Below are positions 37,661 through 60,070 of a stretch of DNA of 64,000 bases, piece after piece (position 1 is the stretch's first letter; each line of letters opens with the position of its first letter). The notes beneath the pieces are model-generated. The model was not told the origin of the DNA, made no database searches, and worked only from the letters and a program-made list of their open reading frames with translations. The stretch is taken from contig NZ_JAHHZQ010000001.1 of the NCBI RefSeq assembly GCF_022606355.1, positions 434,001 to 498,000 on the forward strand, in the 5' to 3' direction. Source of the stretch: Leifsonia shinshuensis (GTDB lineage: Bacteria; Actinomycetota; Actinomycetes; Actinomycetales; Microbacteriaceae). Made by a program: the position numbers and the translations under genes.

Positions 37661-37672
37661 CCCACGCCGAGG

Positions 37673-37719: not shown

Positions 37720-37738
37720 GCTCGGTCGGCGGTGCCCG

Positions 37739-41894: not shown

Positions 41895-42263
41895 GTGCGG
41901 AGCTCCTTCGGGTCTGGCTGGTGGTACCTGCAGGGCGATCCGCCGGGGCACTGCGTCGTGCCTCGGGGTGGGTAGATCCTGGCACACCACCGACGCGATC
42001 CGCACCCATCGGAGACCGAATCGTCCATCTTGAAACATGATCGTCACGAAATCCGCGTCGATTCGCCCGAAAGACGCGGGAAACCGCACACGGCGTCTCC
42101 CCCGCGGAGGAGCAGCGAGACGAACTGTCGATATCCGCGTTAGCTCGACACAGAATTTACGGAATCAGCACCATCCTTCATGAATTGCTATCGAAATCCT
42201 CCGTGAAGGGCGCTAGGGTGTTCTCGAACCATCACGTCGAAGTGCAAGGAGCTGAGGAGCCCC
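41895..42263. other. Intergenic region between potD and ald
   Basis: 369 bp without a gene, AT-richer towards the ald side. Seen here: the potD ribosome site, the ald promoter (42214) and its ribosome sites (AAGGAG 42246-42251, GAGGAG 42254-42259), and a small TTCATGAA palindrome at 42177-42184. No AldR-type gene is adjacent. The potD promoter could not be placed with confidence. Confidence 0.7.
42214..42219 (+). promoter_or_regulatory. Candidate -10 (TAGGGT) of ald
   Basis: TAGGGT lies 44 nt before the ald ATG. A leader of about 38 nt with two ribosome-site-like stretches contrasts with the leaderless genes in this window. Confidence 0.5.
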
Positions 42264-43380: not shown

Positions 43381-43439
43381 CGCAGGCGAGGGAGCTCCTC
43401 TGCCCGGCCGTTCGCGCGGCCGGCAGAGGAGTTCCTGCG
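43381..43439. terminator. Hairpin between ald and the zinc-ribbon/FHA gene
   Basis: CTCCTCTGCCCGGCCG pairs with CGGCCGGCAGAGGAG (one bulge) around a TTCGCG loop. Outer CGCAGG/CCTGCG extends it. The convergent genes both end nearby. Confidence 0.75.
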
Positions 43440-43464: not shown

Positions 43465-44052
43465 TCAGCTGACGTCGAACCATTGGTCGCCGATGTCGAC
43501 CCTGGTCCCCCGGCCCACCCGGTAGCGGCGGCCCGCTTCGCATTGCCGCGCCACGCCACCGAGCGGGCGCGCGACAGTGCCGTTGCCGGAATAGCGGTCG
43601 CAGATCCAGAGGTCGTCGCCTTCGAGCCCGAACTCGAGGTGCGTCTTGGAGACGCTGCGTGCCGGGTCCGAGATGGCGACCAGCTGGTCGACGTGCTCCC
43701 CCGGCTGCGTGATCGGGCGCCGTCCGATCAGCCCGCTGCCGAGCACGTCCACTGACTCCCCGGTGGAGAAGCTCAGCCGGAACAGCCGCACGGAGGCCGC
43801 ACGCGGGGCGCTCTCGATCGAGACGACCTCGATGGCCTCGGTCGGCGGGAGCCCGTCATCATCGACGTCCACCGAGCCAGGGAACCGGCCGGCGACCGCG
43901 GGCTTCGCGAGAGGCTGGACGATCGAGGTGTCGGACGGTCGCGAGTCGGCGACCTCCGGCGGCCGCACCCGCGACGCCGTCACCGAACTCCCGCAGTTTC
44001 CGCAGAACAGCGTCCCCTCGGAGAGCGCCGCTCCGCACACCCGGCATCTCAT
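43465..44052 (-). CDS. Zinc-ribbon plus FHA-domain protein
   Basis: 195 residues. The N-terminal zinc ribbon has Cys3, Cys6, Cys17 and Cys20 (CRVC, then CGNC). An acidic linker follows, then a C-terminal FHA domain with GRRPI, SVSKTHLEF and GNGTVARP, the phosphothreonine-binding loops. It is the last gene of the kinase/MoxR cluster and overlaps the transglutaminase-like gene by 4 nt. It is a likely reader of proteins phosphorylated by the cluster's kinase (inference). Confidence 0.88.
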   Translation of the reverse strand: MRCRVCGAALSEGTLFCGNCGSSVTASRVRPPEVADSRPSDTSIVQPLAKPAVAGRFPGSVDVDDDGLPPTEAIEVVSIESAPRAASVRLFRLSFSTGESVDVLGSGLIGRRPITQPGEHVDQLVAISDPARSVSKTHLEFGLEGDDLWICDRYSGNGTVARPLGGVARQCEAGRRYRVGRGTRVDIGDQWFDVS

Positions 44053-46361
44053 CGCCTGTTCGTCCTCTCTCGCGTCCTTCCACGGTAGCCGAGCGATCGC
44101 AGAGACACGGCCGCCAGCAGCCGCTTCCACCGCGTGTCGCGGCGATCCAGCTGTGCACGCAGCTCGTCGACCGCCTTCCACACCGTCTCCGCCTCGGCCC
44201 GAGTCGGAGCGAACGGGCTGAACACCGCGCGGTCGGCCACTTTGGCGAGCGCCGCAGCCCTCGTACCGCCGATGGTCGACGCGAACTCCACCCGGGTCGC
44301 GGCGGGCGGCGGATCGTACCCGTGGTCGACGGCCGCATCGGCGAACTCGCGCCACCCGCCGACGATCCGGTCGGCAGCCGACGCCGCCGACCGCCGGAGG
44401 GAGCGCCGCCGCCATTTGGCTGCGATGACCGCCAGGAACGGCGCCGCGAGCAGGGCCAGCACCAGCAGGGTCCAGCCGATGGCGGTGAGGACGGCCAGGA
44501 GGGTCTCCAGGACGGGATCGGGCGTGTGCTGCGGCGTGTTGTCGACCTGGGCCTGCGGCGGCTCCTCGTTCTGCTGAGGGCTGTCGTCGATGGGCGGCTG
44601 CACATTGGTCTGCGGCCGGGAGATCTCGGTCGGCTGCTCCGGCTGCTTCGGCGGCACCGGCCGGACCGGAGGGGTCGGGTCGACCGTCACCCAGCCGGAG
44701 GTGGTCTGCACCTCCATCCAGGCCGAGACATCGGCGCCGAGGAACGTGACAGGCCCGGCCCCCGTGTCCGCGGGAGCGACGAAGCCCATGACGACCCGGG
44801 CGGGGAATCCGAGCTGCCGCGCCATCAGCGCGGCCGTCACGGCGTACTGCTCCTGGTCGCCGAGCATCGGGACGTTCGTCAGCAGCTCGGTGATCCGATC
44901 GGCGCCGTGCCCCGAACGGCTGGCCGGCTCGTTCGGGCCGACTCCGTGGCTGAGGTAGCCGTCGGTCGCGAGGCCCTGGAGCGCGGCCGCCAGCTTGGCG
45001 CCGGCGCCAGAGACGCCCGAGGTGTACTTCTGCAGGGTCGACTGCAGTTCGTCGGGGATCACGGCCGGCCGGGGCACGGTGTCGGAGCCGGGCTCGACCT
45101 TCGTCAGCTGACTCGCCGAGAGCTTCGGCGGAGTGACGGAGTCCGCCACGTACACGTCACCGTCGCGTAGGGCGGACATGACGGCACCGGTTCCGGTGAC
45201 GTCGTTGTAGAAGTAGGCACCGGAGAGCGTCGAACCGCGGCTCCCGAGGAACTGGATCTGCTCGAGCTGTCCCGTTCCCGGCACCCACGGACCTCGGTAG
45301 CCGCGCACGGTGACGGTCAGCTGCGTCTGCGTACCCTTCGTGCCCGCCTGGTCGAGCCGGTAGGGCAGGCGGGCGAACGCGCCCGAGGCGCTCGTGGCGG
45401 CCGCGCTCCCCACCGAGTAGGTCACTCCGTCGTAGGTGTCGAGCGTGGCGATCCGGATGCGCCGGTCCGCCGGTAGCCCCGAGACACTGAGCATCGGCTT
45501 CGACGAGGCGCCAGGCTCGAAGTACGACCGGAAGCCGCTGAGCGGGCTGGGGAACGCCCGCGGGTCGAACGGCTGCTCGACCGCCGTCCGCACCACCTGC
45601 CGGTCGTTCGCCGGTGGCACCAGGGCGGTGGCCCCGATCCCGACGACGGCGGCGCCTGCGAGCATCACCGCGGCCCCGGTCGCCGTCAGCACAGCCGTCG
45701 AACCGCGCTCCCTGCGCGTCTCGACGGTGAGGCCGCTCTGCTCGCGCAGCGTGCGCACCGCAGCCGTCCGCCGACGCAGTCGCAGCCGGATGTTCCAGAC
45801 CAGCAGCAGCGCGAACAGCCCGAGGACGAGCCAGAGCGGCGCGCTCGCGATCGCCGAGCCCAAGGCGATCCCGGCGACGAGGACGACCACGGGTGGGATG
45901 CCCGCCAGCTCGGGGAGGGAGGAGCGGAGTGCGGTCGTCGTGGTGATCACACTCGCCAGCAGAACGAGGATGAACGCGGGGACGAGGAGCGCCTGATAGG
46001 AACCGACCGGGACCGAGATGGTGACCAGCTGCTTCCACGACGACCACGTGCCCTGGACGAGATCGACGAAGCCCTGCGGCGTCGGCAGCAACCCGCCGGC
46101 CGTCGCCTCCCCCGGGATCGCGAGCTGGACGCCCGTGCCCAGATACACCACGACGATCAAGCCGCCGACCACGATACTGGGCCAGCGGAAGACCGCCCCG
46201 AGCACGGCGATCGCCGACCCGAGCGCGATCGTGACCACGAACATCGTGACGAACGCCGTCGACTGGTAGACGGGCCAGAACGACCACGCCGCCAGCGCGA
46301 GCGCCGCCACCGCGAATCCGACATCCGCGGCGGCCGAACGCCAGGGCAGCCGCCCGATCAC
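44049..46361 (-). CDS. Transglutaminase-like membrane protein (TgpA type), catalytic residues replaced
   Basis: 770 residues. Five to six N-terminal membrane segments (residues 1-190) precede a long extracytoplasmic part with the transglutaminase-like core at about 495-565. A Pro/Gln-rich linker and one more helix (about 623-650) follow, then a cytoplasmic tail. In the core, the family's GDCE is GDQEQY (Gln503 where Cys is expected). The His of DAHAW is Ser546 (DVSAW); Asp561 (DPTPP) remains. It is therefore predicted to be non-catalytic. GTG start overlaps the DUF58 stop; such proteins accompany MoxR and DUF58 in many bacteria. Confidence 0.88.
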   Translation of the reverse strand: MIGRLPWRSAAADVGFAVAALALAAWSFWPVYQSTAFVTMFVVTIALGSAIAVLGAVFRWPSIVVGGLIVVVYLGTGVQLAIPGEATAGGLLPTPQGFVDLVQGTWSSWKQLVTISVPVGSYQALLVPAFILVLLASVITTTTALRSSLPELAGIPPVVVLVAGIALGSAIASAPLWLVLGLFALLLVWNIRLRLRRRTAAVRTLREQSGLTVETRRERGSTAVLTATGAAVMLAGAAVVGIGATALVPPANDRQVVRTAVEQPFDPRAFPSPLSGFRSYFEPGASSKPMLSVSGLPADRRIRIATLDTYDGVTYSVGSAAATSASGAFARLPYRLDQAGTKGTQTQLTVTVRGYRGPWVPGTGQLEQIQFLGSRGSTLSGAYFYNDVTGTGAVMSALRDGDVYVADSVTPPKLSASQLTKVEPGSDTVPRPAVIPDELQSTLQKYTSGVSGAGAKLAAALQGLATDGYLSHGVGPNEPASRSGHGADRITELLTNVPMLGDQEQYAVTAALMARQLGFPARVVMGFVAPADTGAGPVTFLGADVSAWMEVQTTSGWVTVDPTPPVRPVPPKQPEQPTEISRPQTNVQPPIDDSPQQNEEPPQAQVDNTPQHTPDPVLETLLAVLTAIGWTLLVLALLAAPFLAVIAAKWRRRSLRRSAASAADRIVGGWREFADAAVDHGYDPPPAATRVEFASTIGGTRAAALAKVADRAVFSPFAPTRAEAETVWKAVDELRAQLDRRDTRWKRLLAAVSLRSLGYRGRTRERTNRR

Positions 46362-47701
46362 GTCGCGAGCCGTTTCGCGAGGCTGCGCTGGAGGTCCTCC
46401 AGGTAGCCGATGGTCAGCACGCTGAGGTCGGCGACCCGGCGCAGTGTGGGAACAGCGCCCTCGTCGCAGACGATGGCCAGCACGTCCACGCCGAGCGGGA
46501 AGTGCGCTGCTGCCGAGCGCAGCTGGGTCGCGGTGACCGTCGACCCGCAGACCAGGAAGACGATCGATGTTCCCGCGGCGTCATCGCTCGCGACCTGAGC
46601 GAGCTCAGGCAGCCGGAGGGCCGACTCCGCCGTCTCGACACCGGCCAGGTCGTCGAGCAGCCGGCCACGGCCCACCGTGCTCAGCCGGCGGGCACTGAAC
46701 ACCACGCGTTTGGCGAACTCGGGCGTCTCTGCGCTCGCGACCACCGAGACCGTGCGCGAGTCCAGCATCGCCCGCACGCCCAGGGAGCCCGTCGCGCTCA
46801 CGGCCAGCTCGAACTCCTCGTCGGAGGCGTAGTCGGCCGCGGAGAGGCTGAGCGCAACAAGGAGGTGGCTGCGCCGGGTCTCCTCGAACTGGCGCACCAT
46901 GTAGCTGCCGGTCTTCGCCGTGCTCTTCCAGTGGATGTTCCTGCGTTCGTCTCCTGGCATGTACTCGCGGAGCGCGTGGAACGCGACGTCGCTCTGCGTC
47001 AGGTCGCGCGTGGGCGCGCCCTCCAGGTCGCGCACGAATCCGGTGCTCATGCTCGGGATCGCGATGATGCGCGGATGCACGAACAGGTCGAGCGAGTCGG
47101 CCCACACCATCTCCCGGCGCAGCAGCCCGATCGGGTCGGCGCGAACGGTCCGCACCGGGCCGATCGGGACGATGCCGCGCCTGCTGGTCGGCACGACGAA
47201 GACGTCGGAATGCTCCTCGCCGCTCAGCAGCGCCGGCACGGCGAACTCGGCGAGGCCGGCGCCGACCGGAACCTCCACCCGTACGCCGGGCAGGCGGCGC
47301 CGTGCCGGGTTGCGGACGGTAACCTCCCCCGGTGCGCGGTCGCCGACGACGACGCGGTTGGTGGGCAGCGTGAGCCCGACGTCGTAGGCGATGCGGCCGA
47401 CCAGATAGAGCGAGGCGATCAGGAGCAGGGCGGCGGCCGCCCAGCCCGTCACCACCGCCTCCGTCCAGCCCAGGACGTAGCCGGCGACGAGTGCCAGAGC
47501 CGTCACCGCTGTCATCGACCAGCCGAGCGGCGTGATCACCGCCCCGAGCACGCGCGCGGCCGACGCCACGGTCTTGCCGAAAGCCGCGCTCGTGCGGACG
47601 ACCCAGACGATCGCGTCCGCGAGCAACCCGTCACGCTCGCCGACGATGCGGGCGCGCGCGTTGGTGAGCTCGACCTGGGTGCGGGTGACGGTGCTGGTCA
47701 C
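46358..47701 (-). CDS. DUF58-domain protein
   Basis: 447 residues. Two adjacent membrane helices (about 50-95) are followed by a beta-rich region, then the DUF58 signature YMPGDERRNIHWKSTAKTG with a von Willebrand-A-like C-terminal half. DUF58 proteins are standard partners of MoxR AAA+ ATPases in envelope assembly or maturation. GTG start overlaps the moxR stop by 4 nt, and its stop overlaps the next gene by 4 nt. Confidence 0.92.
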   Translation of the reverse strand: MTSTVTRTQVELTNARARIVGERDGLLADAIVWVVRTSAAFGKTVASAARVLGAVITPLGWSMTAVTALALVAGYVLGWTEAVVTGWAAAALLLIASLYLVGRIAYDVGLTLPTNRVVVGDRAPGEVTVRNPARRRLPGVRVEVPVGAGLAEFAVPALLSGEEHSDVFVVPTSRRGIVPIGPVRTVRADPIGLLRREMVWADSLDLFVHPRIIAIPSMSTGFVRDLEGAPTRDLTQSDVAFHALREYMPGDERRNIHWKSTAKTGSYMVRQFEETRRSHLLVALSLSAADYASDEEFELAVSATGSLGVRAMLDSRTVSVVASAETPEFAKRVVFSARRLSTVGRGRLLDDLAGVETAESALRLPELAQVASDDAAGTSIVFLVCGSTVTATQLRSAAAHFPLGVDVLAIVCDEGAVPTLRRVADLSVLTIGYLEDLQRSLAKRLAT

Positions 47702-48669
47702 ACGGCGGCCCGATCGCTCGGCGGCGGCACCTCGATCAGCAGCTGACCGACGACGCTGGAGGCCGTGACGCCCTCGAACTCGGCCTCGGGATCGAGCACG
47801 AGTCGGTGCGCGAGCACCGGCTCCGCCAGCGCTTTCACGTCGTCGGGCGTCACGTAGTAACGGCCGGTGGACGCGGCGAGGGTCTTGGCTGCGCGCACGA
47901 GCGCGAGCGCGCCGCGCACGCTGACGCCGAGTCGGATCTCGTCGGCCGTCCGGCTGGCGTCGACCAGCCGGGAGACGTAGTCGTTGATCGACGGGTCCAC
48001 GTGGACGCCACGCGCCATATCGGCCATCTCGATGACGGTCTCCGCCGAGATCACCTCCGGCACGACGATCTCGTGCGCGCGGCGCTCCGCCCCCTCGAGG
48101 ATGCGCAGGGTCGCCTCGTGGTCCGGGTAGCCGATCGACGCCTTCATCAGGAAGCGGTCGAGCTGCGCCTCCGGCAGCCGGTAAGTCCCCGCCTGCTCGA
48201 TCGGGTTCTGGGTGGCGATCACCATGAACGGCTCACCGACGGGATGACGCACTCCGTCTACGGTGACCTGCTGCTCCTCCATGACCTCCAGCAGGGCCGA
48301 CTGGGTCTTGGGCGAGGCGCGGTTGATCTCGTCGGCCAGCACGATGTTGGCGAACACGGGCCCGCGGTGGAACTCGAAGGCGCCCGTCCGCTGGTCGTAG
48401 ATGTTGACGCCGGTGATGTCGCCCGGAAGCAGGTCGGGAGTGAACTGGACCCGGTTGGTCGTGCCCCGCACGCTCTCGGCCATGGCCCGCGCCAACGACG
48501 TCTTGCCGGTGCCGGGGAAGTCCTCGAGGAGCAGATGGCCCTCGCTCAGCAGGGCGGTGAGCGCCAGCCGGATGACATGGGACTTGCCGAGGAGGACACG
48601 GTCGATGTTCTGCACGAGGCGGTCGAACACGCCCGAGAACCAGCCGGCCTGCTCGGGGGTCATCGTCAT
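47698..48669 (-). CDS. MoxR-family AAA+ ATPase
   Basis: 323 residues: Walker A EDFPGTGKTSLARAMA, Walker B NIVLADEINRASPKTQSALL, sensor 1 FMVIATQNPIEQAGTYRLPE, and arginine-finger segment LPEAQLDRFLM. MoxR proteins act as chaperone-like ATPases that load or activate metal- or VWA-containing partners. ATG 48669 has a GAGAGAGG ribosome site 7 nt upstream. An in-frame ATG at 48747 overlaps the giant gene's stop (ATGA) and would add 26 residues; given the coupling seen elsewhere in this operon it remains possible. Confidence 0.93.
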   Translation of the reverse strand: MTMTPEQAGWFSGVFDRLVQNIDRVLLGKSHVIRLALTALLSEGHLLLEDFPGTGKTSLARAMAESVRGTTNRVQFTPDLLPGDITGVNIYDQRTGAFEFHRGPVFANIVLADEINRASPKTQSALLEVMEEQQVTVDGVRHPVGEPFMVIATQNPIEQAGTYRLPEAQLDRFLMKASIGYPDHEATLRILEGAERRAHEIVVPEVISAETVIEMADMARGVHVDPSINDYVSRLVDASRTADEIRLGVSVRGALALVRAAKTLAASTGRYYVTPDDVKALAEPVLAHRLVLDPEAEFEGVTASSVVGQLLIEVPPPSDRAAV

Positions 48670-48743
48670 GCTGTGGCCTCTCTCGGGGTGCGTGAGCAGC
48701 GCCGCGTTCGCGCGCGCGCCGTCCTCAGTATGCCGGTCCTCGC

Positions 48744-51700
48744 TCATGGCATGCCTGAGGCCGGATACGACGTCGAGTACGTGTCGCTCCCGACGCGCAC
48801 CGTGACGGTGAGCGACGGGTTCACGGCGCCGGGCGACGCCTGGCAGGTCGCGGTCTGCCCGACCGGCGGCATCGGCGCCTCCGGTCCGTTGCCGCAGCTG
48901 TAGGTGACGAGGGTGTAGCCCGAGCCGGTCGGCCAGCTCGTCCAGCTGAAGGTGCTCGTCGTCGCGTCGTAACGTGCGCCGCCGATCGCGGTGCTCACGG
49001 CCACGCCCATCCGCGTGCTGTAGTTCTGCGGCGAACAGAGCTGGGAGCCGTCGGGGTAGGTCTCGCAGATGCTGGTGATGCTGAGAGTCAGCCCGGTGCC
49101 GTAATGTGCTCCGTTGCCGCCCGAGACCATGCCGCTCGTGCCGGACAGCTGGCCGTTCTCCACCACCCCGTTGTCGCCGATGAGCTGGTAGTTGACGATC
49201 GGGCTCGAGCCGCTGCCGTTCTGGTAGTCGACGGCGGCCTGGAAGTCCCAGGTGCTCGCGAGGTTCTGCGCCGGCCCGGTGATCTTCACGCTGCGCACCG
49301 GCCCCGGCTGCAGGCGCTGCGTCGCCGAGACGACGGCGCTCGCCGTGCAGCCCTGGCCGTTGTAGGCGTAGACGACGAAGTTGTAGGTCTGGTTCGCGCT
49401 GAGCCCGGTGAAGGTCGCGCTGCCGCCCTGGACCTGCTGGAAGGTCGACGAGGTCGGATCCACATGGAGGACGGGATTCCCCGTCTCGACACCCGTCACA
49501 CTGCATCCCGGTTGGGCACCGCCCTGGAACACGCCGGCGTAGTACGCGATGACGGCCTTGCCGTTCGGGGTGAACACGTTCGGCCAGGAGAGGACGGCGC
49601 TCGACCCGTCGCCGGTGTTCGGGTTCGCTGCCGGCGCGATGCCGGTCAGCAGCGGAGCTCCCGCCGGCACGCCGCTTCCCGACGTCTGGTTCCACGTCGT
49701 GCGGCCCTGGTAGAAGTCGTTCCGGCTCGCGATGCTGAAGCCGATGGCCACACCGTTCGCGATGGAGGCGTCGACCACGTTGAGCGCGTAGCTCCCGCTG
49801 TCGCCCGGAGACACCTGAAGGGCGTTCGTGATCCCGCCGACCGTCACCACGTACGAGCTGATCGGGCTGGCCCCCGGAGCGTCGGCCGGGCGGTTCCAGG
49901 TGATCCGGAGTCCGTTGTTCAGCGGCGTGTAGTTCACGTTCGCCGGAGCGTTCGGCACCACGTCCGACCAGACCGGCTCCACATAGCTGGTCGGGTCGGA
50001 CAGGCCGAGGGCGTTGCGGGCGCGCACAGCGAGGGTCACAGCGTTCCCCCTGCCGTTGCCGGGCGTCGTGATCGCGCACACCGTGGTGCTGCACTGCGTC
50101 GTGCCAAGCACGGCGCCGGAGGCCGCGCTGCTCATCGTGACCTCGAAACCGGTGATGGGCGAGTTGTTGAACGCCCCCGGCGTCCAGCTGAGCGTCAGGC
50201 TTCGGTCGCCGATCGCCGAGATCTGCACGTTCGAAACGGGGGCCGGGCGGTCTTGGACCGACACCGTCACCGTGCCCCAGGTGTAGCGATCGGGATCGTC
50301 GGTGGCGTCGGCGACCTCGTACTGCAGGGTGGTGTCGACCGGAGCCGCCGTGTTCGAGACGGAGATCTGCAGCACCGAGTTGTCGGAGCTCGGAGTGATC
50401 GCGACGCCGTCGGGGAGGGCTCCGCCGAGACCGCGGACGGCCAGGACACGCAGCGGCTTGTTCGGGAACGGGTTGGTCGCGGTGTCGTTGGCGAGAACGT
50501 CGACGGTCGTCGTCTGTCCGCGCGGAGCGATGACGCGGTCGGGCTGCGGGCTCGCCAGCGGGCGCGTCGACGGCACGATGTTGAGGTCGATGCGGCCGGC
50601 CTGGCCCGCGTTCACCGCGTCCTTGACGCCGATGGAGATCGAGGGGGTGCTCCCCTTCTGGACGCCTGCTCCGACCGAGATCGTGAGCTTCTGGCCCGAG
50701 AGCGACAGCGAGACGCCGTCCGGTCGCGGGTTCTGGATCGAGTACTGGAGCTCGGACTGGTCTTTCGCATACGGGTAGCTCGTGAGCTTGGTGAGATCGA
50801 CCGTCTTCGACTGGCCCGGCTCGAAGTCGATCAGCGCCCCGGTGAAGACGGGAGGCTGATTCTCGCGAGGGGTGACGTCGATCGGCAGCACGATCGTGGC
50901 GACGTTGCCGTTCGGGTCGTTCGCGCTGCTGCCGTCTGTCACCTGGAACGAGATGCTCGCCGGGCCGAAGTAGCGGCTGGACGACGTGTACTGCAGGGTG
51001 TCGGAGGCGACCACCAGGTCGTCGCCGTTGGCGTGGGTCGCGCGGACCGTCGCGGCGTCCGTCAGCCTCACCTTGCGGCCGCCGACGGCGACGATGTAGT
51101 CGTTCAGGTGGATCGTCAGCGTCTTCTCGCTGACCACCGTGAGCTTGGGGGCACCCCGTTTGAGCTGGGGCAGCGCGTCGTCGTAACCGGGGAGCCGTAC
51201 GAACCCGTAGGCGGCGTACGACTCGTCGTCCGGGTTGGCGACCTTGAACGGGATGATCTGGCTCTTCGCGGTGATCGCTACGCGGATGCGCTTGTCCGGG
51301 GTCACCTGGGCGGTGTTCCCGTACCCCGGCACGATCGAGAGCTTGAGGGAGGAGACCGGGCCGTCGGCGAAGAACACGTTCGACAGCGCGCTCACGTCGA
51401 CGGTGTCGCGTCCCAGGATGTCGGAGAGCCCGAGCACGGTGTCGGTCACCACCGGACGCGCTGGCGGTGCGTTCTTGTCGACCGTCACGCGGAGGAACGC
51501 CTGGCTGGTGCCGCCCCGTTCGTTCTGGATCGTGTAGAGGAAGCCGTAGGCGCCCTCCTGCTGCGGCGCCGTCACCACCACGATGTCGCCCTGGATCTTG
51601 GCCTTCGCCTTGCCGTCGAGCGACGTGACCGCCGTGACGCTCAGCGGGCTGCCGTCCGGATCCGAGTCGTTCGCGAGCACCTGGACGCTGAGGGTCCGTC

Positions 51701-54653
51701 CCGGACGGGTCGTGACGTCGTCTTCGACGGCGACGGGGTTGCGCGCGCCGTCGACACGCGGTGCGATCCCGACCCGCACGGTGCCCGTGGCCCTGGCGCC
51801 GAGCGCATCCACGACGGCGTAGGTGAACGAGTCGGTTCCCGCTGCGTACTCCCCCGCCTGGAAGTCCATCCAATCGCTGCCGGAGGCCACGACGGCGCCC
51901 TTCTGCGGATTGGTCTCCTGGCCGATGAACTGCACGGAGTCGCCGTCGGGGTCGATGCCCGAGAGCGGGATCGTGATCCGCACCGTGTCGCCGGCGAGGA
52001 CGCGGGCCGTGACCGTCTTGGGCACGGGCGGGTTGTTGGTCGCCACGTCGCGCTCGCGCACGGCGATGCTCACTTCGGCGGTGGCCCACTGCCCGTCGGC
52101 GCCGTAGACGCGGTACGCCGCGGTGTAGTTGCCGGGCTTCGACGGCGCGAGATACCGCAGGTGATCCCCGCTGGCGAACAGGAGGCCGGCCCCGGCGGGC
52201 AGTGGCGTCGCGAGCGTCGGGTCGAGGGTCAGCTTGTCGCCGTCCGGCTGCACGTCGTTGGCCAGCACGGGGATGTCGACGACGTCGTCCACCCGCACGG
52301 CCACGGAGTCGGGGACGGCGATGGGCGGCTGGTGCACGGTGAGCGGCGGGAGCTGGACGACGGTGACCGTGCCCTCGGCGTCGGCCAGGCCGTTGCTGAG
52401 CCGGTAGTGGAAGTCGACGGGCTCGCTGAGCGGCCTCGTCAGCGACACGCGCAGCGTGCGCTGCTGGAGCACCTGTACCTTGATGCCGGACGCTGGGGAG
52501 GGATCCGTGACCCCTGTCACCAGGAGCACGCCCCCCGACGGGTCGATGTCGGTCGACAGCACGTCGACGTCCTGCGTCGACTGCTCGCGGATGAAGGCCG
52601 TGTGCGGCACGGCGATCGGCGTCGTCTTGGCCCCGGGCGGCGCCTTCACCTCGACGCGCACGGTGCCCGTCGTCGTGATCACGCCGTCCGTCACCGAATA
52701 CTCGATGTTGTGGGTCCCGGCCTGGTCGGACGCGAAGCGGAACGTTCCGCCCTGGTAGTCCGGTGTGATCGTGGCGTCCGCCTTGGACGGCACGGTGCTC
52801 AGCCGGACGACGCCGTTGCCACCGCGCACGTGGTCGAGCGGCCGGACGGTCGTCTCCTGACCCTGATAGGTCACGACGGCGAACGGATCGGCGATGATCG
52901 GCACCTGGCCGGGGGGCTGCACCGTCACGGCCAGCTGACCGGAACCTTCGGCCCGCCCGTCCGAGAGCACCAGCGCGACGTCCTTGAGGCCGCCTCCCGT
53001 CCCGTGGTCGGAGTACGCGACCTGCCCCTGCGGGGTGAAGGTCACAGTGTCGGGGGCGGGGACCGTGGCGCTCGCCAGGTAGAACGGGTCGCCGTCGGGG
53101 TCGTAGCAGTCACCGAGAACGGAGGTGGTGACCCGGCCGCCGGCCTGGACGACCGCCTTCGCCGTGCGGACGCACACGGGAGGCGAGTTCTCGTTCGGGG
53201 TGCGGACCGTCACGGTCACGTGCGCCGTCGCCGTCCCGCCGCGTCCGTCGGAGATGGTGTAGTCGAAGCCGATGGAGCCGCTCGCGGTCGGCGGGAGGGA
53301 GATCTGGAGCAGCTGGTCCGAGTTCGTCAACTGGATCGTCCCCTGGTCGGCGGGGATCGCGGTGAACGAGTCGATCGTCAGCACGTCGCCGTTCGGGTCG
53401 TAGTCGTTGAGCAGCACCGGGAGCGGCGTGACGCGTCCCGGCCGCGCGCCGAACTGGTCGTCGACCGCGACCGGGGGCTGCTCCTGCTTCGCGTACTGGG
53501 GCGTCGTGTCCTGCTTGGACTGGTCCACGAGCTCCTGCGTGGTCTTCTTGGAGATCAGCTCGTCCCAGTTGTCGATGCGCGCGTTGCCCGACTGCACGGC
53601 CCAGGAGACACCGGAGCGGGCGTCGTTCAGGACCACGCGGTCGCGGTTCACCCGGAACGAGAGCACCGCGTTGGCCGGCACCTGACTCAGCGGGCTCCGG
53701 GTCCCCGCCGCCGACGAGGAGCAGCCGCGCCACGCGGCGCCTCCGTTCCAGGCGGCGTACACGCATCCCGCCACCGCCACCGGCGCGGCGGGCGCCCCCG
53801 ACACCGTGCCGAGCACCCGCGTCGGGGCCGAGCCGTCGAGGGGGACGCGGACGAGACCGGAGGAGGTCGCGATCCACACGGCCGTTCCGTCGCTCGACGG
53901 CGCCTGCAGCATCGCGTCGGTGTCGTCGCCGAGCACCCGGGCGAGGTTCACGGCGCCGTCGCTGGTCCACAGCGTCTTCTCGTCCGGGTCGAACACCGCC
54001 CACCGGCCGCCCGCCGACGTGACCTGCACGTGAGCGCCCTCGCCCCGGGTTGGCACCTTCACGGTCGAACTCGCCGGCTGCTCACCGCCCAGGTCGATGC
54101 GCACCATGCTGCGGGATCCCGGCTGGTAGACGAACAGCACGCCGGAGGGATCCATCGCGGCGAGGGCGCGACCGCCGAGGTCGATCGTCGCGGCCGACCC
54201 CGAGTTGAACTGGTCGAGCTGATCGATCGAGGTCAGCCAGAGCTGGCCGGTCGTCTGGGAGAGCATCGCGACATGGTTGCCGGAGACGGCCACCTGCGGC
54301 GACCGCGGAGGAAGGGCGACCGACTTGCCGGCCTCGGCGGTCGCCGGGTCGACCACCGCCGCCGTGTTCGCCTCCTTGTCGAGCAGCAGAACGTTCTCGC
54401 CGTCCTGCACGACGTCGAGCGCCTCCCCGGAGCCCGCGACGATCGAGTTCAGCGAGTCGATCTCGGTGTTGGCGCGGCCGAGCGCCTTCTTCGTGTCGCT
54501 GGCCACCCACACCGCGGCGTCGTTCAGCTGCAGGTGTTGCGCGCTGTAGCCGCCCGAGAACACGGCGAGTGTCGTCACCAGTGCGGCGACGACCGTTCCG
54601 CTCAGCGCCGTCGCGGCGATCGACTTGTGGGCGAGCAGCCACGACCGGATCAT
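48744..54653 (-). CDS. Giant membrane-anchored Ig-like/fibronectin type III surface protein
   Basis: 1969 residues. A short cytoplasmic end and one membrane helix (about 12-35) begin the protein. Then comes a 350-residue region with repeated V/L-rich beta strands (propeller-like). About ten to eleven cadherin/Ig-like repeats follow (about 395-1450), several with the pattern VLANDxDPDGxxLxV. Four fibronectin-III-like domains close the protein (about 1460-1969, for example LTLSWTPGAFNNSPITGFEV). There is no LPXTG or C-terminal anchor. It is probably an elongated stalk reaching through the wall. The ATG overlaps the kinase stop. The open plus-strand frame covering the same DNA is a high-GC shadow. 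Confidence 0.9.
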   Translation of the reverse strand: MIRSWLLAHKSIAATALSGTVVAALVTTLAVFSGGYSAQHLQLNDAAVWVASDTKKALGRANTEIDSLNSIVAGSGEALDVVQDGENVLLLDKEANTAAVVDPATAEAGKSVALPPRSPQVAVSGNHVAMLSQTTGQLWLTSIDQLDQFNSGSAATIDLGGRALAAMDPSGVLFVYQPGSRSMVRIDLGGEQPASSTVKVPTRGEGAHVQVTSAGGRWAVFDPDEKTLWTSDGAVNLARVLGDDTDAMLQAPSSDGTAVWIATSSGLVRVPLDGSAPTRVLGTVSGAPAAPVAVAGCVYAAWNGGAAWRGCSSSAAGTRSPLSQVPANAVLSFRVNRDRVVLNDARSGVSWAVQSGNARIDNWDELISKKTTQELVDQSKQDTTPQYAKQEQPPVAVDDQFGARPGRVTPLPVLLNDYDPNGDVLTIDSFTAIPADQGTIQLTNSDQLLQISLPPTASGSIGFDYTISDGRGGTATAHVTVTVRTPNENSPPVCVRTAKAVVQAGGRVTTSVLGDCYDPDGDPFYLASATVPAPDTVTFTPQGQVAYSDHGTGGGLKDVALVLSDGRAEGSGQLAVTVQPPGQVPIIADPFAVVTYQGQETTVRPLDHVRGGNGVVRLSTVPSKADATITPDYQGGTFRFASDQAGTHNIEYSVTDGVITTTGTVRVEVKAPPGAKTTPIAVPHTAFIREQSTQDVDVLSTDIDPSGGVLLVTGVTDPSPASGIKVQVLQQRTLRVSLTRPLSEPVDFHYRLSNGLADAEGTVTVVQLPPLTVHQPPIAVPDSVAVRVDDVVDIPVLANDVQPDGDKLTLDPTLATPLPAGAGLLFASGDHLRYLAPSKPGNYTAAYRVYGADGQWATAEVSIAVRERDVATNNPPVPKTVTARVLAGDTVRITIPLSGIDPDGDSVQFIGQETNPQKGAVVASGSDWMDFQAGEYAAGTDSFTYAVVDALGARATGTVRVGIAPRVDGARNPVAVEDDVTTRPGRTLSVQVLANDSDPDGSPLSVTAVTSLDGKAKAKIQGDIVVVTAPQQEGAYGFLYTIQNERGGTSQAFLRVTVDKNAPPARPVVTDTVLGLSDILGRDTVDVSALSNVFFADGPVSSLKLSIVPGYGNTAQVTPDKRIRVAITAKSQIIPFKVANPDDESYAAYGFVRLPGYDDALPQLKRGAPKLTVVSEKTLTIHLNDYIVAVGGRKVRLTDAATVRATHANGDDLVVASDTLQYTSSSRYFGPASISFQVTDGSSANDPNGNVATIVLPIDVTPRENQPPVFTGALIDFEPGQSKTVDLTKLTSYPYAKDQSELQYSIQNPRPDGVSLSLSGQKLTISVGAGVQKGSTPSISIGVKDAVNAGQAGRIDLNIVPSTRPLASPQPDRVIAPRGQTTTVDVLANDTATNPFPNKPLRVLAVRGLGGALPDGVAITPSSDNSVLQISVSNTAAPVDTTLQYEVADATDDPDRYTWGTVTVSVQDRPAPVSNVQISAIGDRSLTLSWTPGAFNNSPITGFEVTMSSAASGAVLGTTQCSTTVCAITTPGNGRGNAVTLAVRARNALGLSDPTSYVEPVWSDVVPNAPANVNYTPLNNGLRITWNRPADAPGASPISSYVVTVGGITNALQVSPGDSGSYALNVVDASIANGVAIGFSIASRNDFYQGRTTWNQTSGSGVPAGAPLLTGIAPAANPNTGDGSSAVLSWPNVFTPNGKAVIAYYAGVFQGGAQPGCSVTGVETGNPVLHVDPTSSTFQQVQGGSATFTGLSANQTYNFVVYAYNGQGCTASAVVSATQRLQPGPVRSVKITGPAQNLASTWDFQAAVDYQNGSGSSPIVNYQLIGDNGVVENGQLSGTSGMVSGGNGAHYGTGLTLSITSICETYPDGSQLCSPQNYSTRMGVAVSTAIGGARYDATTSTFSWTSWPTGSGYTLVTYSCGNGPEAPMPPVGQTATCQASPGAVNPSLTVTVRVGSDTYSTSYPASGMP

Positions 54654-56080
54654 GGTGAAGCGGTCCTCTGCACGCACTTCTGCCCGCTCGGCGACCCCGT
54701 CTTGCCGTCGCGGTTGACCGTGACGGTCACGCACACGGTCTCACCCGGCTTCGCATCGACACGGAACTCGGTCGCACGCTGGCTGCTCGGCGGCTGGTCG
54801 TCGACGGTGACCACGTAGCTGTCGCCGCTCTCGATCCCCGGATCGCTCCACGTGAAGACGATGGTGCTCTCGGAGACCCGGCCGCTCAGGTCGCGCACGG
54901 TCGGGATGTCGTTCGCGGAGCCGGCGCGAACCAGGACGACCGCGGCGGTCACTCCGAGGACCACCACCAGCAGCGCGCACGCGACCAGCGAGATCACGAG
55001 GGCCCTGGACACCCGCGACGGCGCGGCGGGCGGCGAGGTCGGCGAGCTGCCGATGCTCTCGCGCACCATCGTGCGGGTCGGAGTGCGGGTGGTCGTCGCG
55101 GCCGCGGCCGGCGTCTTGCGGCGACGACGCTGCGAGCCGGGATCGACGGCCACGACGCCCTTCACCCTGGTGCGCTCCTCCGGATCGTCGGCCGTGGCGA
55201 GCGCCCAGTCGTCCATCGCGACCTCGATGGGCGTCTGCGGCAGGCCGAGCTCGGCCTCCACGGACTGCAGTTCGCGGATCAGCTCGAGCGCGCTGCGCTG
55301 ACGAGCGGACGGCTTGCGCGACATCGAGCGCATCAGGAGCTGTTCGAGCCGTGGCGGAACGTCTGCGCGGCCGATGGGCTGAGGCCGGCCCTTGGTGATG
55401 CGCTGGATGAGCTCCGCCGACGTGTTCTCTTTGCCCGGCTGCTCGAACGGTGACCGGCCGGCCAGCAGGGAGTAGATCGTCGCGCCGATCGACCAGACCT
55501 CGCTCGCGATGGTGCCGCTCGTCTCGTCCAGCAGCACCTCGGGCGCGGACCAGGGGATCGACAGCCCGATCGCCTCGGTGACATCGGCCTCGCTCAGTGT
55601 CGCGGCGATGCCGAAGTCGCTCAGCACGGGATGGCCGTACGCGGTGGTGAGGATGTTCGACGGCTTGATGTCACGGTGCAGCACGCCCGCGCGGTGCGCC
55701 GTCTCGACCGCGCTCGCGATGCGGACGCCGATGCTCAGCACCTCGGGCACCGGCAGCGGCTCCGACCGGTAGCGCTGCCCGATCGCCGACGAGCAGAGCT
55801 CCATGACCAGATACGGCCGGCCGTCGGCCGACACGCTCGCCTGGTAGACGGTGAGGATCGACGGGTGGGTGCTGAGCTGGGCCATCAGGTTGGCCTCCGC
55901 CTGGAACATCTGCTTGACCTGGCTCGTGACGACCTCTGCCAGCATCACCTTGACCGCGACCTGCCGGCGCGGCATGTTCTGCTCGTACAGGAACACGTCG
56001 GCGAAGCCGCCCGAACCGAGCACCCTGACGTACGAGAAGCCAGGCAGGTTCGGCGGCTGTGAAGGCAAGCGCCGAGCCAA
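54650..56080 (-). CDS. Membrane Ser/Thr protein kinase (PknB type) with Fn3-like ectodomain
   Basis: 476 residues. Kinase domain 15-275: glycine loop VLGSGGFADVF, Lys44 in VAVKVM, catalytic loop HRDIKPSN, SDFGIA and APEVL. A basic Thr-rich juxtamembrane region (QRRRRKTPAAAATTTRTPTR) offers autophosphorylation sites. One membrane helix (about 363-388) leads to a 90-residue extracellular domain of Fn3 character (VFTWSDPGIESGDSYVVTVD) instead of PASTA repeats. TTG start, supported by GGGAGGGG 5 nt upstream. The stop overlaps the giant protein gene, its likely partner. Confidence 0.93.
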   Translation of the reverse strand: MARRLPSQPPNLPGFSYVRVLGSGGFADVFLYEQNMPRRQVAVKVMLAEVVTSQVKQMFQAEANLMAQLSTHPSILTVYQASVSADGRPYLVMELCSSAIGQRYRSEPLPVPEVLSIGVRIASAVETAHRAGVLHRDIKPSNILTTAYGHPVLSDFGIAATLSEADVTEAIGLSIPWSAPEVLLDETSGTIASEVWSIGATIYSLLAGRSPFEQPGKENTSAELIQRITKGRPQPIGRADVPPRLEQLLMRSMSRKPSARQRSALELIRELQSVEAELGLPQTPIEVAMDDWALATADDPEERTRVKGVVAVDPGSQRRRRKTPAAAATTTRTPTRTMVRESIGSSPTSPPAAPSRVSRALVISLVACALLVVVLGVTAAVVLVRAGSANDIPTVRDLSGRVSESTIVFTWSDPGIESGDSYVVTVDDQPPSSQRATEFRVDAKPGETVCVTVTVNRDGKTGSPSGQKCVQRTASP

Positions 56081-56134
56081 GCAGCCCCTCCCGTCGTCGG
56101 CCGAACGCGATCGCGGCGGCGAAGGCGTTTCCCA

Positions 56135-56140
56135 ATTGTA
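56135..56140 (-). promoter_or_regulatory. -10 hexamer TACAAT of the kinase gene
   Basis: TACAAT in the 181-bp gap between PP2C and kinase, with a weak CTGAGC -35 sixteen bases upstream. It gives a leader of about 48 nt ending in the GGGAGGGG ribosome site. The same gap holds a C5-n6-G5 element (56197-56212). The kinase and genes downstream can thus be transcribed apart from FHA-PP2C. Confidence 0.6.
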
Positions 56141-56261
56141 GGCAGCAGGGAGAGGCGCTCAGGGAGCCGGGACCCGCACTGGGGACAACTGGATTACCCC
56201 CAACTCGGGGGGCACTCCGGCGTGCCGTGGAGGCTGTGGAGGAATGCCGTCCGACAGCTGG

Positions 56262-57098
56262 TCAGTGCCTCCGAGCCGCCCGCCGGGGGAAGCCCTCGCG
56301 GTGCGTGCCGCTCTCCGGCGTCGCCAGGACGTCGACTACCACGACGGTCACGTTGTCGCGGCCGCCGTTGCCCAGCGCCGCGTCCATCAGCTGTTGCGCG
56401 GCGTCGAGCGGCGAGTTGCCCTCGCCGAGGAAGTACCGGATCCCGTGCTCCGTCAGCTCCTTCGTGAGCCCGTCGGAACAGACCAGCAGTCGCGATCCGG
56501 CCACGATCGGGAAGAGGAAGTAGTCGGGGACCGGGTCCTCGTTGAACCCGACGGCCCGCGTGATCACGTTGCTGTGCGGGTGGACCTCGGCCTCCTCCGG
56601 GGTGATCGCGCCGGCATCCAGCAGCTCTTGCACGATCGAGTGGTCGACGGTCAGCTGTTCGAGCGTGCCGTCGCGAAAGCTGTAGACGCGCGAATCGCCG
56701 ATGTTGAAGACGAGCCAGTACGGAGCACCCTCCACCAGCGTCAGAGCGATGCCCGTCACGGTGGTGCCCGTGCCGAGGTCCGTCTGGCCGACTCCCCTGG
56801 TCATGTCGCCCACGGCGTCGCGCAGCGCGCTCGTCAGCGACGTCTCCGTCACGAAATCGGCGCGGACCTTCTCAGCCAGCCGGGTCACGACCGCGGTGCT
56901 CGCGAAGTCGCCCGCCGTGTGACCTCCCATACCGTCGGCGACCGCGAAGATCGGCGACCGCGCGAGGAGGCTGTCCTCGTTGACGCTACGACGGTAGCCG
57001 GTGTCGCTGAGCGCCGCCCAGCCGAGGCTGATGCGCGCATCGGCACCCCCCGGGACCACCACGGTGTGGCGACGGTTGGTGCGACCGATCTGGGTCAC
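56262..57098 (-). CDS. PP2C-family Ser/Thr protein phosphatase
   Basis: 278 residues. The metal-binding motifs of the family are all present: VNEDSLL, VADGMGGHTAGD, FNIGDSRVY, LVCSDGLT and GGRDNVTVVVV. No membrane segment, so it is cytoplasmic. It is the expected opponent of the kinase encoded next. GTG start overlaps the FHA gene stop by 4 nt. Confidence 0.95.
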   Translation of the reverse strand: MTQIGRTNRRHTVVVPGGADARISLGWAALSDTGYRRSVNEDSLLARSPIFAVADGMGGHTAGDFASTAVVTRLAEKVRADFVTETSLTSALRDAVGDMTRGVGQTDLGTGTTVTGIALTLVEGAPYWLVFNIGDSRVYSFRDGTLEQLTVDHSIVQELLDAGAITPEEAEVHPHSNVITRAVGFNEDPVPDYFLFPIVAGSRLLVCSDGLTKELTEHGIRYFLGEGNSPLDAAQQLMDAALGNGGRDNVTVVVVDVLATPESGTHREGFPRRAARRH

Positions 57099-58363
57099 TC
57101 GCGTCCTTCTTCTCGACGGTCCGCCCCCGACGCCGGCCGAGGTGCACCCTGCGGGTCATCGGCCGGGACGGCGGTGATCTCGATGATATTACCGTCGCCG
57201 ATCTGCACAACGGAGCCGGGCAGCACGACCGTCGACTCGCCCGGCCGCAGGCGGGCGGACGCCCCACCCGGCCGAACGACGACGGTACCGTTCGTCGACC
57301 GGAGGTCGGTGACGACGACGGCGTCCCCCGACTGCTCGATGCGCAGGTGCGTCGACGAGACCTCCTGATCGGGCGACGGCACCGCGATCAGGCGCGGCAG
57401 CACACCGGAGTCCACCCGCGGCAGCGCGGGCTTGCGACCCACGAGGATCGGGGCGTCCAGCTCGAAGCTGTCCCCCGGTCCGACGCGAACGGCGAAGCGC
57501 AGCGGTGCCCGCTCCGGCGCGACCGGCGCGAGCTCCGACGGCCGAGGCGATGTCCCGTCGCCGGTGCGGCCACCGGGCGTGTCGCGCGAACCGGTGGTCA
57601 GCGGCTGCTCCGTCGCCGTCCCCGGCTCCTCGATGTCGATCGCGCCGGGGAGCTCGTGCGCGACGGGAACCCGCTGGACCACCGGCTCGGCCTCGGGCGA
57701 CTCGGCGAGTTCCGCCCGGGAGTCGTGGCGCGAGAACAGGCTCGAGCTCCGGGGACGGTCGCGGATGATCGTCTCGTCGGCGCTTGCGTCGCCCGCGGGC
57801 GAATCGTCGGCGCCGGAGTCGCCGGCCCGTACCGAGACGACCGGTTCGGCGCTGCGCTCTACGCGCTCGATCGGCGCACTCGACCAGGTCAGCAGCTCGC
57901 CGTCCACCACCCCGAGCCCGATCGGCAGCGAGCCGACGGCGAGCCGGGCGACCGGAGCGGTGGGCAGGTCGTCCCCGCCGAGCGCGAGGCCGGTGACGTT
58001 CCGGAACTCCGCGAGCACCCAGGGCTGCACGCCCCCGGAGCCGAACCGCCGGGCACCGCCGACGGAGAAGATGTCGAGCGCCGCCGAGCCGCGGACCACC
58101 GCGGTCACGACGATCTCGCCCTGAGCGTTCGGCTCGCCGAGCTCCGCGACGGCGAACGAGCGCACGCTGTCCGGTCCGGCCAGGGGGAACGCCCCGACCA
58201 CCGACTCGATGGTCGCCAGATCGGAGTCGGCGAGCCACCACACCGCCTCGACGATGCTGTCGGCGGCCGTGCTCTCGACGCAGGCGACGAACCGCCGCCC
58301 GGCGATCAGCAGCCAGCGGGACGGGCCGGCGGTCGGGGCGTACCGCGTGAAGCCGGGAGCCAC
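57095..58363 (-). CDS. FHA-domain protein
   Basis: 422 residues. The N-terminal 170 residues form an unrecognised globular domain. A long acidic, Pro/Ser-rich linker (about 190-285) includes Thr in ADETIIRD, a good kinase target. The C-terminal FHA domain (about 300-400) has ILVGRKPAL, EVSSTHLRIEQSGD and RSTNGTVVV. It is the first gene of the cluster, with TACACT as -10 (58436-58431) and GGAGG 8 nt before the GTG. It probably binds phosphothreonine on the kinase or on itself. Confidence 0.9.
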   Translation of the reverse strand: MAPGFTRYAPTAGPSRWLLIAGRRFVACVESTAADSIVEAVWWLADSDLATIESVVGAFPLAGPDSVRSFAVAELGEPNAQGEIVVTAVVRGSAALDIFSVGGARRFGSGGVQPWVLAEFRNVTGLALGGDDLPTAPVARLAVGSLPIGLGVVDGELLTWSSAPIERVERSAEPVVSVRAGDSGADDSPAGDASADETIIRDRPRSSSLFSRHDSRAELAESPEAEPVVQRVPVAHELPGAIDIEEPGTATEQPLTTGSRDTPGGRTGDGTSPRPSELAPVAPERAPLRFAVRVGPGDSFELDAPILVGRKPALPRVDSGVLPRLIAVPSPDQEVSSTHLRIEQSGDAVVVTDLRSTNGTVVVRPGGASARLRPGESTVVLPGSVVQIGDGNIIEITAVPADDPQGAPRPASGADRREEGRE

Positions 58364-58430
58364 TCGGGGTTCCTCCAGGTCTGCGACGGACCGGGGCTGC
58401 TCCCCGATGTAGGACGTGACGTACGGGACG

Positions 58431-58436
58431 AGTGTA
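58431..58436 (-). promoter_or_regulatory. Candidate -10 (TACACT) of the FHA-PP2C operon
   Basis: TACACT between the cache gene's stop and the FHA gene, with about a 60-nt leader. It lies only 10 bp beyond the cache stop codon. Confidence 0.45.
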
Positions 58437-58445: not shown

Positions 58446-59204
58446 TCAGGTGGGCTGCGCCGAGGCGACGAGGCGGAACGGGGTCCCCGGGCACCGGATC
58501 GCGTCGTCCCCGACCTGAGCGACGGCCCCCACCAGCACCGTCGGGTCGGTCGACACCATCACCCGCCCCCACTCGTTGACCAGCATCGTCGGGCACCCGA
58601 CTCCCAACAGCGCCGGCAGCAGTTCACGCTCGAGACGCCGGACGTAGACGTCCACACCGACCACGCCGAGCATCCGCCCGCCATGCTCGACGGGCGAGGT
58701 GATGGTGACGATGTAGTCGCAGGCGCAGAGGTGGTCGACGTACGGCCCGGTGATGTGCGTGCGATGCGTCGATCGCGGGATGCTGTACCACTCCAGCGAC
58801 CGGAAGTCGCGCAGATAGTCCGAGTACGAGCGGGAGGCCAGATCCAGCCGGCTCGGCTCGGTCGTCGCCCCCGTGAGCGGGTTGTCGTCGAGCGGTCCGA
58901 GCCACCAGGCGAAGTGGAGGTCGTCCCCTCCGGTGAACTCCGGCGCGGCGACGAACCCCGCGCCGACGAGCACCGGATCGTCCTCGCGCAGCGCGGGGAC
59001 GACCAAGCGCTCGATGAGCTCGTCCAACGCGGCGGCAGGAATCCCGTCCGCGCCCTGATCGGCGAGGACGGCGTCCCGCCATCCCGTGAGCCGCTCCTGG
59101 AGGTCGCCGAACAGGGCGCTCACGCGCGCGGCCGCAGCGTCGATCTGTGCCACAGCGTCGATGCGTGCCGACTCGGCCCGCGTCTTCGAGACCGGCTCAG
59201 CCAT
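58446..59204 (-). CDS. Soluble cache-domain (PDC sensor-like) protein
   Basis: 252 residues. After a helical start, the central part (about 75-235) resembles a double cache/PDC domain: VGAGFVAAPE, LDLASRSYSDYLRDFRSLEW, the binding-loop segment SIPRSTHRTHITGPYVDH, and MLGVVGVDVYVRRLE. Cache domains normally sit outside the membrane, but no signal peptide or membrane helix is present, so this one is cytoplasmic. The ATG lies 8 nt inside the regulator gene's 3' end. It probably senses a small carboxylate for the adjoining regulator (inference). Confidence 0.8.
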   Translation of the reverse strand: MAEPVSKTRAESARIDAVAQIDAAAARVSALFGDLQERLTGWRDAVLADQGADGIPAAALDELIERLVVPALREDDPVLVGAGFVAAPEFTGGDDLHFAWWLGPLDDNPLTGATTEPSRLDLASRSYSDYLRDFRSLEWYSIPRSTHRTHITGPYVDHLCACDYIVTITSPVEHGGRMLGVVGVDVYVRRLERELLPALLGVGCPTMLVNEWGRVMVSTDPTVLVGAVAQVGDDAIRCPGTPFRLVASAQPT

Positions 59205-59982: not shown

Positions 59983-59988
59983 CCCTCC

Positions 59989-59994
59989 ACGATA
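59989..59994 (-). promoter_or_regulatory. -10 hexamer TATCGT for the FadR-type gene, 6 nt before the start
   Basis: TATCGT, then GGAGGG, then GTG at 59982. Confidence 0.5.
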
Positions 59995-60005
59995 TCCCGC
60001 CCTAA

Positions 60006-60023: not shown

Positions 60024-60070
60024 ATTCGGAGCGTGCCCGATGGACGGCCGTGAGAGCGAAGGAGCGGACC

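Follow-up and report, generated by a model that had tools for sequence, protein, structure and literature searches.

What might a bacterium do with a gene set that joins a membrane kinase, a phosphatase and two FHA proteins to a MoxR ATPase, a DUF58 protein, a transglutaminase and a giant surface protein? The question is raised by a locus of Leifsonia shinshuensis (positions 43465–58363, minus strand), which we examined within a stretch of 64,000 nucleotides (nt) of contig NZ_JAHHZQ010000001.1 (434,001–498,000; the window). An initial annotation, made from the letters alone, knew of no named function for these eight genes; their core, however, is the PFNA operon of bifidobacteria. The new point here is the status of the transglutaminase (TG) of this cluster, which is a pseudo-transglutaminase.

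The TG (770 residues, 44049–46361) has the architecture of a TgpA-type enzyme, with Pfam matches to TgpA_N (2.1e-14) and Transglut_core (7.9e-12): transmembrane (TM) helices, an extracellular TG fold and a cytosolic DUF4129-like tail that lies under the Pfam cut-off. The catalytic Cys-His-Asp triad is incomplete. In the alignment numbering, Q503 replaces the catalytic cysteine and S546 the histidine, with D561 retained, and the window protein reads GDQEQYA and DVSAW where TgpA-type enzymes have GxCxxF and DAHAW. The loss of these two residues was absent from the initial annotation. None of the 53 scorable cluster rows, the window included, has a cysteine in the nucleophile column, which holds Asp (18), Gln (13), Ala (8), Glu (7), Gly (4) or Ser (3); the histidine is usually lost too. 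Four further rows have no letter in the cysteine column, being split reading frames. For two separate alignments, thinning left 68 of the 76 giants and 65 of the 80 TGs, of which 60 and 57 were used. The three rows of the same alignment that bear a cysteine (L068–L070) come from loci without the giant. At three loci (L041, L045 and L061) the TG is split across frames, as is the giant at L061; an ambiguous base lies close to the break at L041, and assembly errors are likely.

A scan of named genomes was unusable for the active site, as 68 of its 80 loci were reached only via a peptide spanning it, and the TGs of Bifidobacteriaceae were therefore recounted from a full-length profile search. That search gave 51 rows, scored on about 3–5 kb per locus in which the giant was not looked for, with cysteine in 0/51, histidine in 0/51 and a nucleophile column of Ser (46), Asp (2), Glu (2) and Gly (1). 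Two loci (L243 and L245) duplicate L056, from Bifidobacterium scaligerum, and L057, so that the 53 and 51 rows represent about 101 distinct genes. An in-frame TGA in the TG genes of some bifidobacteria proved to be an ordinary stop near the C-terminal end (four loci, L277 and L279–L281).

Homologues of TgpA outside the cluster, in contrast, keep both residues, the cysteine in 49/49 rows and the histidine in 49/49. This sample is not random: it joins 29 of the 30 best PF11992 matches (L200 gave no TG row), placed outside giant clusters by comparing match positions, to 20 picked by hand among the matches listed, and with five of the 49 rows fetched twice it holds about 44 distinct genes. In stretches of 12–20 kb around outside TgpA genes (20 loci), MoxR was found at 20, DUF58 at 19 and all three together at 19; the same profiles found the giant, the kinase and PP2C at 0/20 and gave one weak FHA match. 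The second TG protein of Bifidobacteriaceae retains its cysteine at 19/19 loci, and the window's own genome also has a cysteine-intact TG (G000:C1:120119). In a tree, one branch (SH-aLRT 94) parts 61 cluster-type from 23 other TGs; it is a quick tree that drew warnings for long branches and letter composition, omits L041, L045, L061 and L152 and uses 11 of the 80 named loci.

The ratio of non-synonymous to synonymous substitution rates for the window TG is 0.11–0.28 against seven loci of the same genus, which indicates purifying selection and therefore no decaying gene; a comparison with one member of the family from a different genus gives 0.37. The segment around the active site, G-D-x-E-Q-Y/F-A, is strongly conserved. 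The cluster TG is a conserved pseudoenzyme, its catalytic cysteine lost in every scorable copy, and because of this loss the system probably acts by binding and assembly and not by cross-linking. The TgpA locus of Pseudomonas aeruginosa (6G49, which the cluster TG profile finds with E 3.3e-4) is alike in its adjoining homologous MoxR, DUF58 and TgpA-type proteins, but differs in that the outside homologues keep cysteine and histidine and have no giant, kinase or PP2C alongside; purified TgpA is active, according to the part of its description available. RloB of the Pseudomonas rlo operon is alike by description only, in a source likewise available in part: it combines an inactive TG domain with TM helices and is predicted to lie outside the inner membrane, but it is partnered by an aspartic protease and an ATP-grasp protein instead of MoxR, DUF58 or a kinase.

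The eight genes, read with their junctions from the window DNA, are consecutive as first annotated, and all have Pfam-backed domains. FHA1 (422 residues, GTG start, 57095–58363) carries its FHA domain (1.3e-07) at residues 329–389, after a long linker; the upstream end of the locus given in the initial annotation (58436) is 73 nt upstream of its start. The PP2C phosphatase (278 residues, 56262–57098; PP2C_2 1.2e-10, metal-binding residues present) overlaps FHA1 at a GTGA and is followed by the membrane Ser/Thr kinase (476 residues, TTG start, 54650–56080; Pkinase 2.9e-40), the giant (1969 residues, ATG start, 48744–54653), the MoxR AAA+ ATPase (349 residues, 47698–48747; AAA_3 4.4e-63 and AAA_lid_2, Walker motifs intact) and the DUF58 membrane protein (447 residues, 46358–47701; DUF58 6.3e-11). 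After the TG comes a zinc ribbon/FHA protein (195 residues, 43465–44052) with a match to Zn_Ribbon_1; the initial count of two FHA proteins holds by Pfam for FHA1, the second FHA domain scoring 19.3 bits, just under the cut-off of 20.7. The length of the giant was correct as first given, and where at least five 4-nt overlaps had been counted we find ATGA or GTGA overlaps at 6/7 junctions, the sole exception being PP2C/kinase. These six overlaps favour one message for the cluster, although a second message may begin at the spacer before the kinase.

The initial annotation took the locus for one dedicated envelope system, and the comparison of genomes bears this out: the gene set is found together across families, in at least two gene orders. 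Searched with the window TG, 55 of 60 relatives showed matches, many being TgpA homologues of any kind; in stretches of up to 20 kb the cluster is present in the window's family and in other families of its order. Loci L031–L067 were fetched around TG matches and therefore contain the TG by selection; the giant-bearing set leaves out L060 and L068–L070 of those 40. Among the 15 from the window's family (L031–L045), 13 have all eight genes; at L040 the PP2C and zinc ribbon/FHA genes are not detectable, and at L044 the second FHA gene is ahead of the kinase. The 36 giant-bearing loci fetched by the TG have DUF58 at 36, MoxR at 35, FHA at 33, the kinase at 30 and PP2C at 29 within the stretch, and with extended stretches the kinase is found at 35/36, one doubtful. 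The giant-fetched loci (L151–L167; L152 is L053 again, the weak L168–L170 were dropped, and the giant of L167 is partial, at 97 bits) give, for n = 16, kinase 15, DUF58 15, TG 15, MoxR 14, an FHA gene 12 and PP2C 11. For the 52 loci with neighbouring stretches the counts are kinase 50, MoxR 49, DUF58 51, TG 51, PP2C 42 and FHA 46, where presence means the best match at E 1e-3 to our own profiles and some PP2C, FHA and kinase matches could be other relatives. The kinase is absent from two of the 52, one at a contig end and one an orphan giant, and is doubtful at L058. A separation of the kinase, PP2C and FHA genes from the MoxR genes in relatives, which would have spoken against a single system, is thus not seen as a rule.

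The order of the genes does change: at L046, L047, L049 and L051 an FHA gene, PP2C and another FHA gene come first and the kinase follows downstream of them, and at L055 and L166 the kinase is on the opposite strand. Because linkage persists through such rearrangement, a shared function of the gene set is indicated. Five genomes (G001, G020, G031, G035 and G399) have two distant cluster copies and two (G281 and G324) have three each (L155–L160); the genome of the orphan giant L151 also carries, at C12, a cluster that includes kinase, MoxR and TG. The locus L058/L233, in a 1.4-Mb genome (G032), has its cluster near two FHA genes, one PP2C and two kinases, surroundings that we take to resemble the common fha-pstP-pknAB locus; its kinase may belong to the ordinary pknA/pknB neighbourhood. 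The scan of named genomes gave 73 loci of Bifidobacteriaceae, six of Cellulomonadaceae and one of Jonesiaceae. By our threshold the giant is present at 77 of these 80, accompanied by the kinase at 77, DUF58 at 77, MoxR at 74 and PP2C at 44 (the TG by selection), and the system extends beyond bifidobacteria, to Cellulomonas, Actinotalea and Flavimobilis (Jonesiaceae). A profile of the giant's N-terminus has any match at 1e-6 in 52 of the 346 genomes drawn from the phylum, many to the Big_9 part alone; the genomes matched over almost the entire profile belong to the window's family, to two further families of its order and, in four cases (G164, G190, G264 and G153), to other classes.

The papers on PFNA are cited here from partial texts. 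They describe an operon of pkb2, fn3, aaa-atp, duf58 and tgm, to which some species add prpC and fha (PMC8430577), present in 77 of 99 species with an FN3 protein stated to be confined to that genus (a 2023 paper, PMC10688814), and a 2025 review likens it to the mycobacterial moxR operon (PMC12067865). The kinase, giant Fn3 protein, MoxR, DUF58 and TG have the same order and direction in the window, and in named bifidobacteria both the N-terminus of the giant and the cluster TG can be aligned with their counterparts in the window. The giants share more than repeats: the N-terminal 395 residues match those of B. saguini (L108) and Flavimobilis (L144) in BLASTP at 5e-25 and 2e-36. The window differs in placing FHA and PP2C ahead of the kinase, in having a zinc ribbon/FHA gene as the last of the set and in its organism, which is not a bifidobacterium; the published accounts, as far as their available text goes, treat the TG as an enzyme and report the FN3 protein from Bifidobacterium alone. 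Among the literature matches listed, no title or abstract start dealt with this set outside Bifidobacterium or with its TG as inactive.

From its N-terminus the giant has a membrane anchor, a domain of about 360 residues, Big_9/cadherin-like repeats, two Fn3 domains and a variable C-terminus (Pfam Big_9 in seven stretches and fn3 in two). Conservation is higher in the repeats and lowest in the last 400 residues. No Pfam family exceeds its cut-off in the N-terminal ∼390 residues; a profile of this region matches designed Pizza propellers with E 5.6e-4 and the sensor propeller of PknD with E 6.3, and the domain is possibly propeller-like.

The kinase runs from its catalytic domain through a juxtamembrane linker and one TM helix to a single Fn3-like ectodomain with two cysteines. 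This ectodomain measures 70–160 residues in 57 of 62 kinases, with the TM helix set by hydrophobicity alone. In the window it matches Pfam fn3 with E 0.053, below the cut-off, and the hhalign probabilities of its profile are 69% with the giant's second Fn3 domain, 25% with the first and <1% with Big_9. Pfam gives no PASTA match for the window kinase, and NCBIfam NF033483 scores 174.5 bits against a cut-off of 450. Wherever the columns can be read, and bar single rows, the kinase and PP2C retain their catalytic residues (the kinase lysine is unreadable in 20 of 82 rows), the FHA domains those that bind the phosphopeptide, and MoxR its Walker residues. The kinase and FHA1 also share a motif, T-[VIL]-[VILM]-R. 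It is enriched in the kinase juxtamembrane segments, with 24 occurrences in 62 (20 positive) where 200 shuffles averaged 1.6 and never exceeded 7, and in FHA1, with 25 occurrences in 38 proteins (21 positive) compared with a shuffled mean of 3.6; PP2C has 0 matches in 93 proteins. If Met is allowed at the second position, the eight window proteins have two sites, T198 of FHA1 (DETIIRDR) and T337 of the kinase (RTMVRES). Switching by threonine phosphorylation, as first proposed, is plausible and gains from this common motif, with T198 and T337 as putative sites.

The DUF58 protein offered a candidate for a second dead site, in the loss of its metal-ion-dependent adhesion site (MIDAS). Read by the MIDAS motif, its Asp column holds Asp in 48/128 cluster rows vs 21/22 rows outside the cluster; the candidate was dropped, as the outside rows also lack the S-x-S part. 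The published texts available in part describe DUF58 as being of unknown function (PMC8430577 and PMC12067865).

The explanation that we prefer, as a tentative one that falls just short of being probable, is that the cluster is a PFNA-type operon in which a MoxR–DUF58–dead-TG machine, gated by phosphothreonine, displays the giant. The AAA+ protein MoxR, DUF58 and the membrane-embedded dead TgpA homologue would form an ATP-driven membrane machine, with the extracellular dead TG domain serving as receptor or holder for the N-terminally anchored giant Ig/Fn3 protein, which the machine would assemble or display at the cell surface and which may have an adhesive or structural role. The kinase would sample the outside via its one Fn3-like domain and PP2C would reverse its action; in B. 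longum, the kinase Pkb2 phosphorylates the operon's MoxR (PMC8430577, partial text). The two FHA proteins would gate the machine by binding phosphothreonine, the probable places being T-[VIL]-[VILM]-R-like sequences in the juxtamembrane part of the kinase and the linker of FHA1. The likeness to type VI secretion drawn in the initial annotation stands as one of function, since the control of that system by PpkA and Fha also sets a kinase and an FHA protein on a membrane machine (PMC3953482, partial text); kinship was rejected, with NCBIfam TagH (TIGR03354) at 21.8 bits against a cut-off of 120 and no core part of type VI secretion among the eight proteins by Pfam. A wider version, that across Actinomycetota a TgpA-type TG became, on a single occasion, an obligately dead receptor in a phosphorylation-gated MoxR machine building giant Ig/Fn3 surface fibres, with the same T-Phi-Phi-R docking motif on the kinase and FHA protein and the bifidobacterial host-cytokine role coming late, is possible, and we put it forward with considerable reserve.

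Several observations weigh against this explanation. The TG histidine is kept in 9 of 54 scorable rows, mostly where the cysteine position is Asp (elsewhere it is mostly Ser, Thr, Glu, Gln or Ala), and the propeller match of the giant is weak and is to designed proteins. One full-length giant, the orphan L151 (G041:C11), has no partner gene within about 25 kb on either side; the kinase of L059 stops at the TM helix; and the zinc-ribbon cysteines are readable in just 21–22 of 40 zinc ribbon/FHA rows. The motif was first spotted by eye and then counted in those very sequences, which, being related, are not independent of one another. In FHA1, at least three matches (L032, L156 and L161) fall within or after the FHA domain and so are not in the linker, and there is one match in 123 MoxR proteins, although MoxR is the substrate known in B. 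longum. The motif also occurs in the TG, at offsets that are conserved extracellular or TM positions, and a phosphosite role for those matches was rejected on that ground. Finally, there is no MoxR between giant and DUF58 at L055, L162, L142, L149 and L150, and nothing MoxR-like was recognisable in their fetched stretches; because such clusters exist, MoxR can be dispensable or act from elsewhere.

We consider it unlikely that the locus is instead two separate adjoining modules, FHA–PP2C and kinase–giant–MoxR, expressed independently and loosely sharing a function. The sole non-overlapping junction is the 181-nt spacer between PP2C and the kinase (56081–56261), which contains a palindrome, CCCCCGAGTTGGGGG, at 56197–56211 and an extended −10-like element, TGCCTACAATTG, at 56133–56144. 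Both are recognisable, with variants, at the seven same-genus loci compared, and within its own genome the spacer element is found exactly at this site alone, plus one site with one mismatch. A scan for sigma-70 promoters found no site; from its conserved elements the spacer is nevertheless a probable second promoter, of a six-gene unit from the kinase on. PP2C was not found at 10 of the 52 loci, and the available text on B. longum GT15 reports that all eight genes are co-transcribed, with starts mapped upstream of pkb2 and, separately, of prpC (PMC8430577). Independent expression of the halves could accordingly apply to FHA–PP2C, whereas the kinase shares a unit with MoxR. Against two modules, the genes stay linked in rearranged orders and the linker motif is common to both.

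The published model, in which the operon is a host-immune sensor whose giant binds cytokines and whose kinase reports on them, with the TG an active enzyme or a cysteine protease, seems to us improbable. In the partial texts available, FN3 fragments of B. longum bind TNF-alpha, TNF raises expression of the operon (papers including PMC8430577 and PMC10688814), and positive selection is reported in bifidobacterial PFNA genes. The same system is, however, shared by the window's family, by Cellulomonas, Actinotalea and Flavimobilis and by four genomes that belong to other classes (a comparison of the genomes alone), and the TG lacks its cysteine in every scorable copy, those of Bifidobacteriaceae included. 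In species of the gut, the binding of cytokines may have arisen late as a use of the system.

That the TG keeps its activity through another nucleophile or a relocated active site is very unlikely, and we rejected it as our preferred account. Transglut_core is still matched and G-D-x-E-Q-Y/F-A strongly conserved, but the residue at the nucleophile position varies freely among Asp, Gln, Ala, Glu, Gly and Ser, of which Ala and Gly are no nucleophiles and where a conserved catalytic residue would be expected, and the histidine has mostly been replaced too. Kinship with the MoxR–vWA–beta-propeller ternary conflict systems, suggested by a MoxR over the bpMoxR cut-off (41 vs 27 bits), a DUF58 protein that we take to be possibly vWA-like and a giant that may carry a propeller, is extremely unlikely, as AAA_3 fits MoxR far better (211 bits), the giant's N-terminal anchor puts its bulk outside, and neither the effector domains described for those systems, in the text available, nor a vWA protein fused to them was found by Pfam in the eight proteins.

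Beyond the last gene of the cluster lies a GC-rich hairpin (43391–43435; arms of 14 nt with 93% complementarity and a further 7-nt pair inside), which is a probable transcription end shared with a convergent alanine dehydrogenase-like gene; a scan for T-tail terminators did not list this hairpin, and the four terminator-like sites that it gave are all inside genes. The downstream stretch 35310–43379 holds aminotransferase-like, spermidine/putrescine-type ABC transport and alanine dehydrogenase-like genes. Directly upstream of the cluster, an open reading frame for a PDC/cache-like sensor (58446–59204) overlaps one for a GntR-like regulator (59197–60246) by 8 nt. The labels of the GntR-like regulator and of the downstream genes come from reading the translations.

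Should the system prove general in Actinomycetota, with a TG that is always dead, two published views need revision: that PFNA is a Bifidobacterium system for sensing host immune signals, and that it contains a transglutaminase. Its function would then be testable in actinomycetes beyond the gut bifidobacteria, and a conserved pseudoenzyme beside a MoxR–DUF58 pair would offer a handle on what such pairs do.

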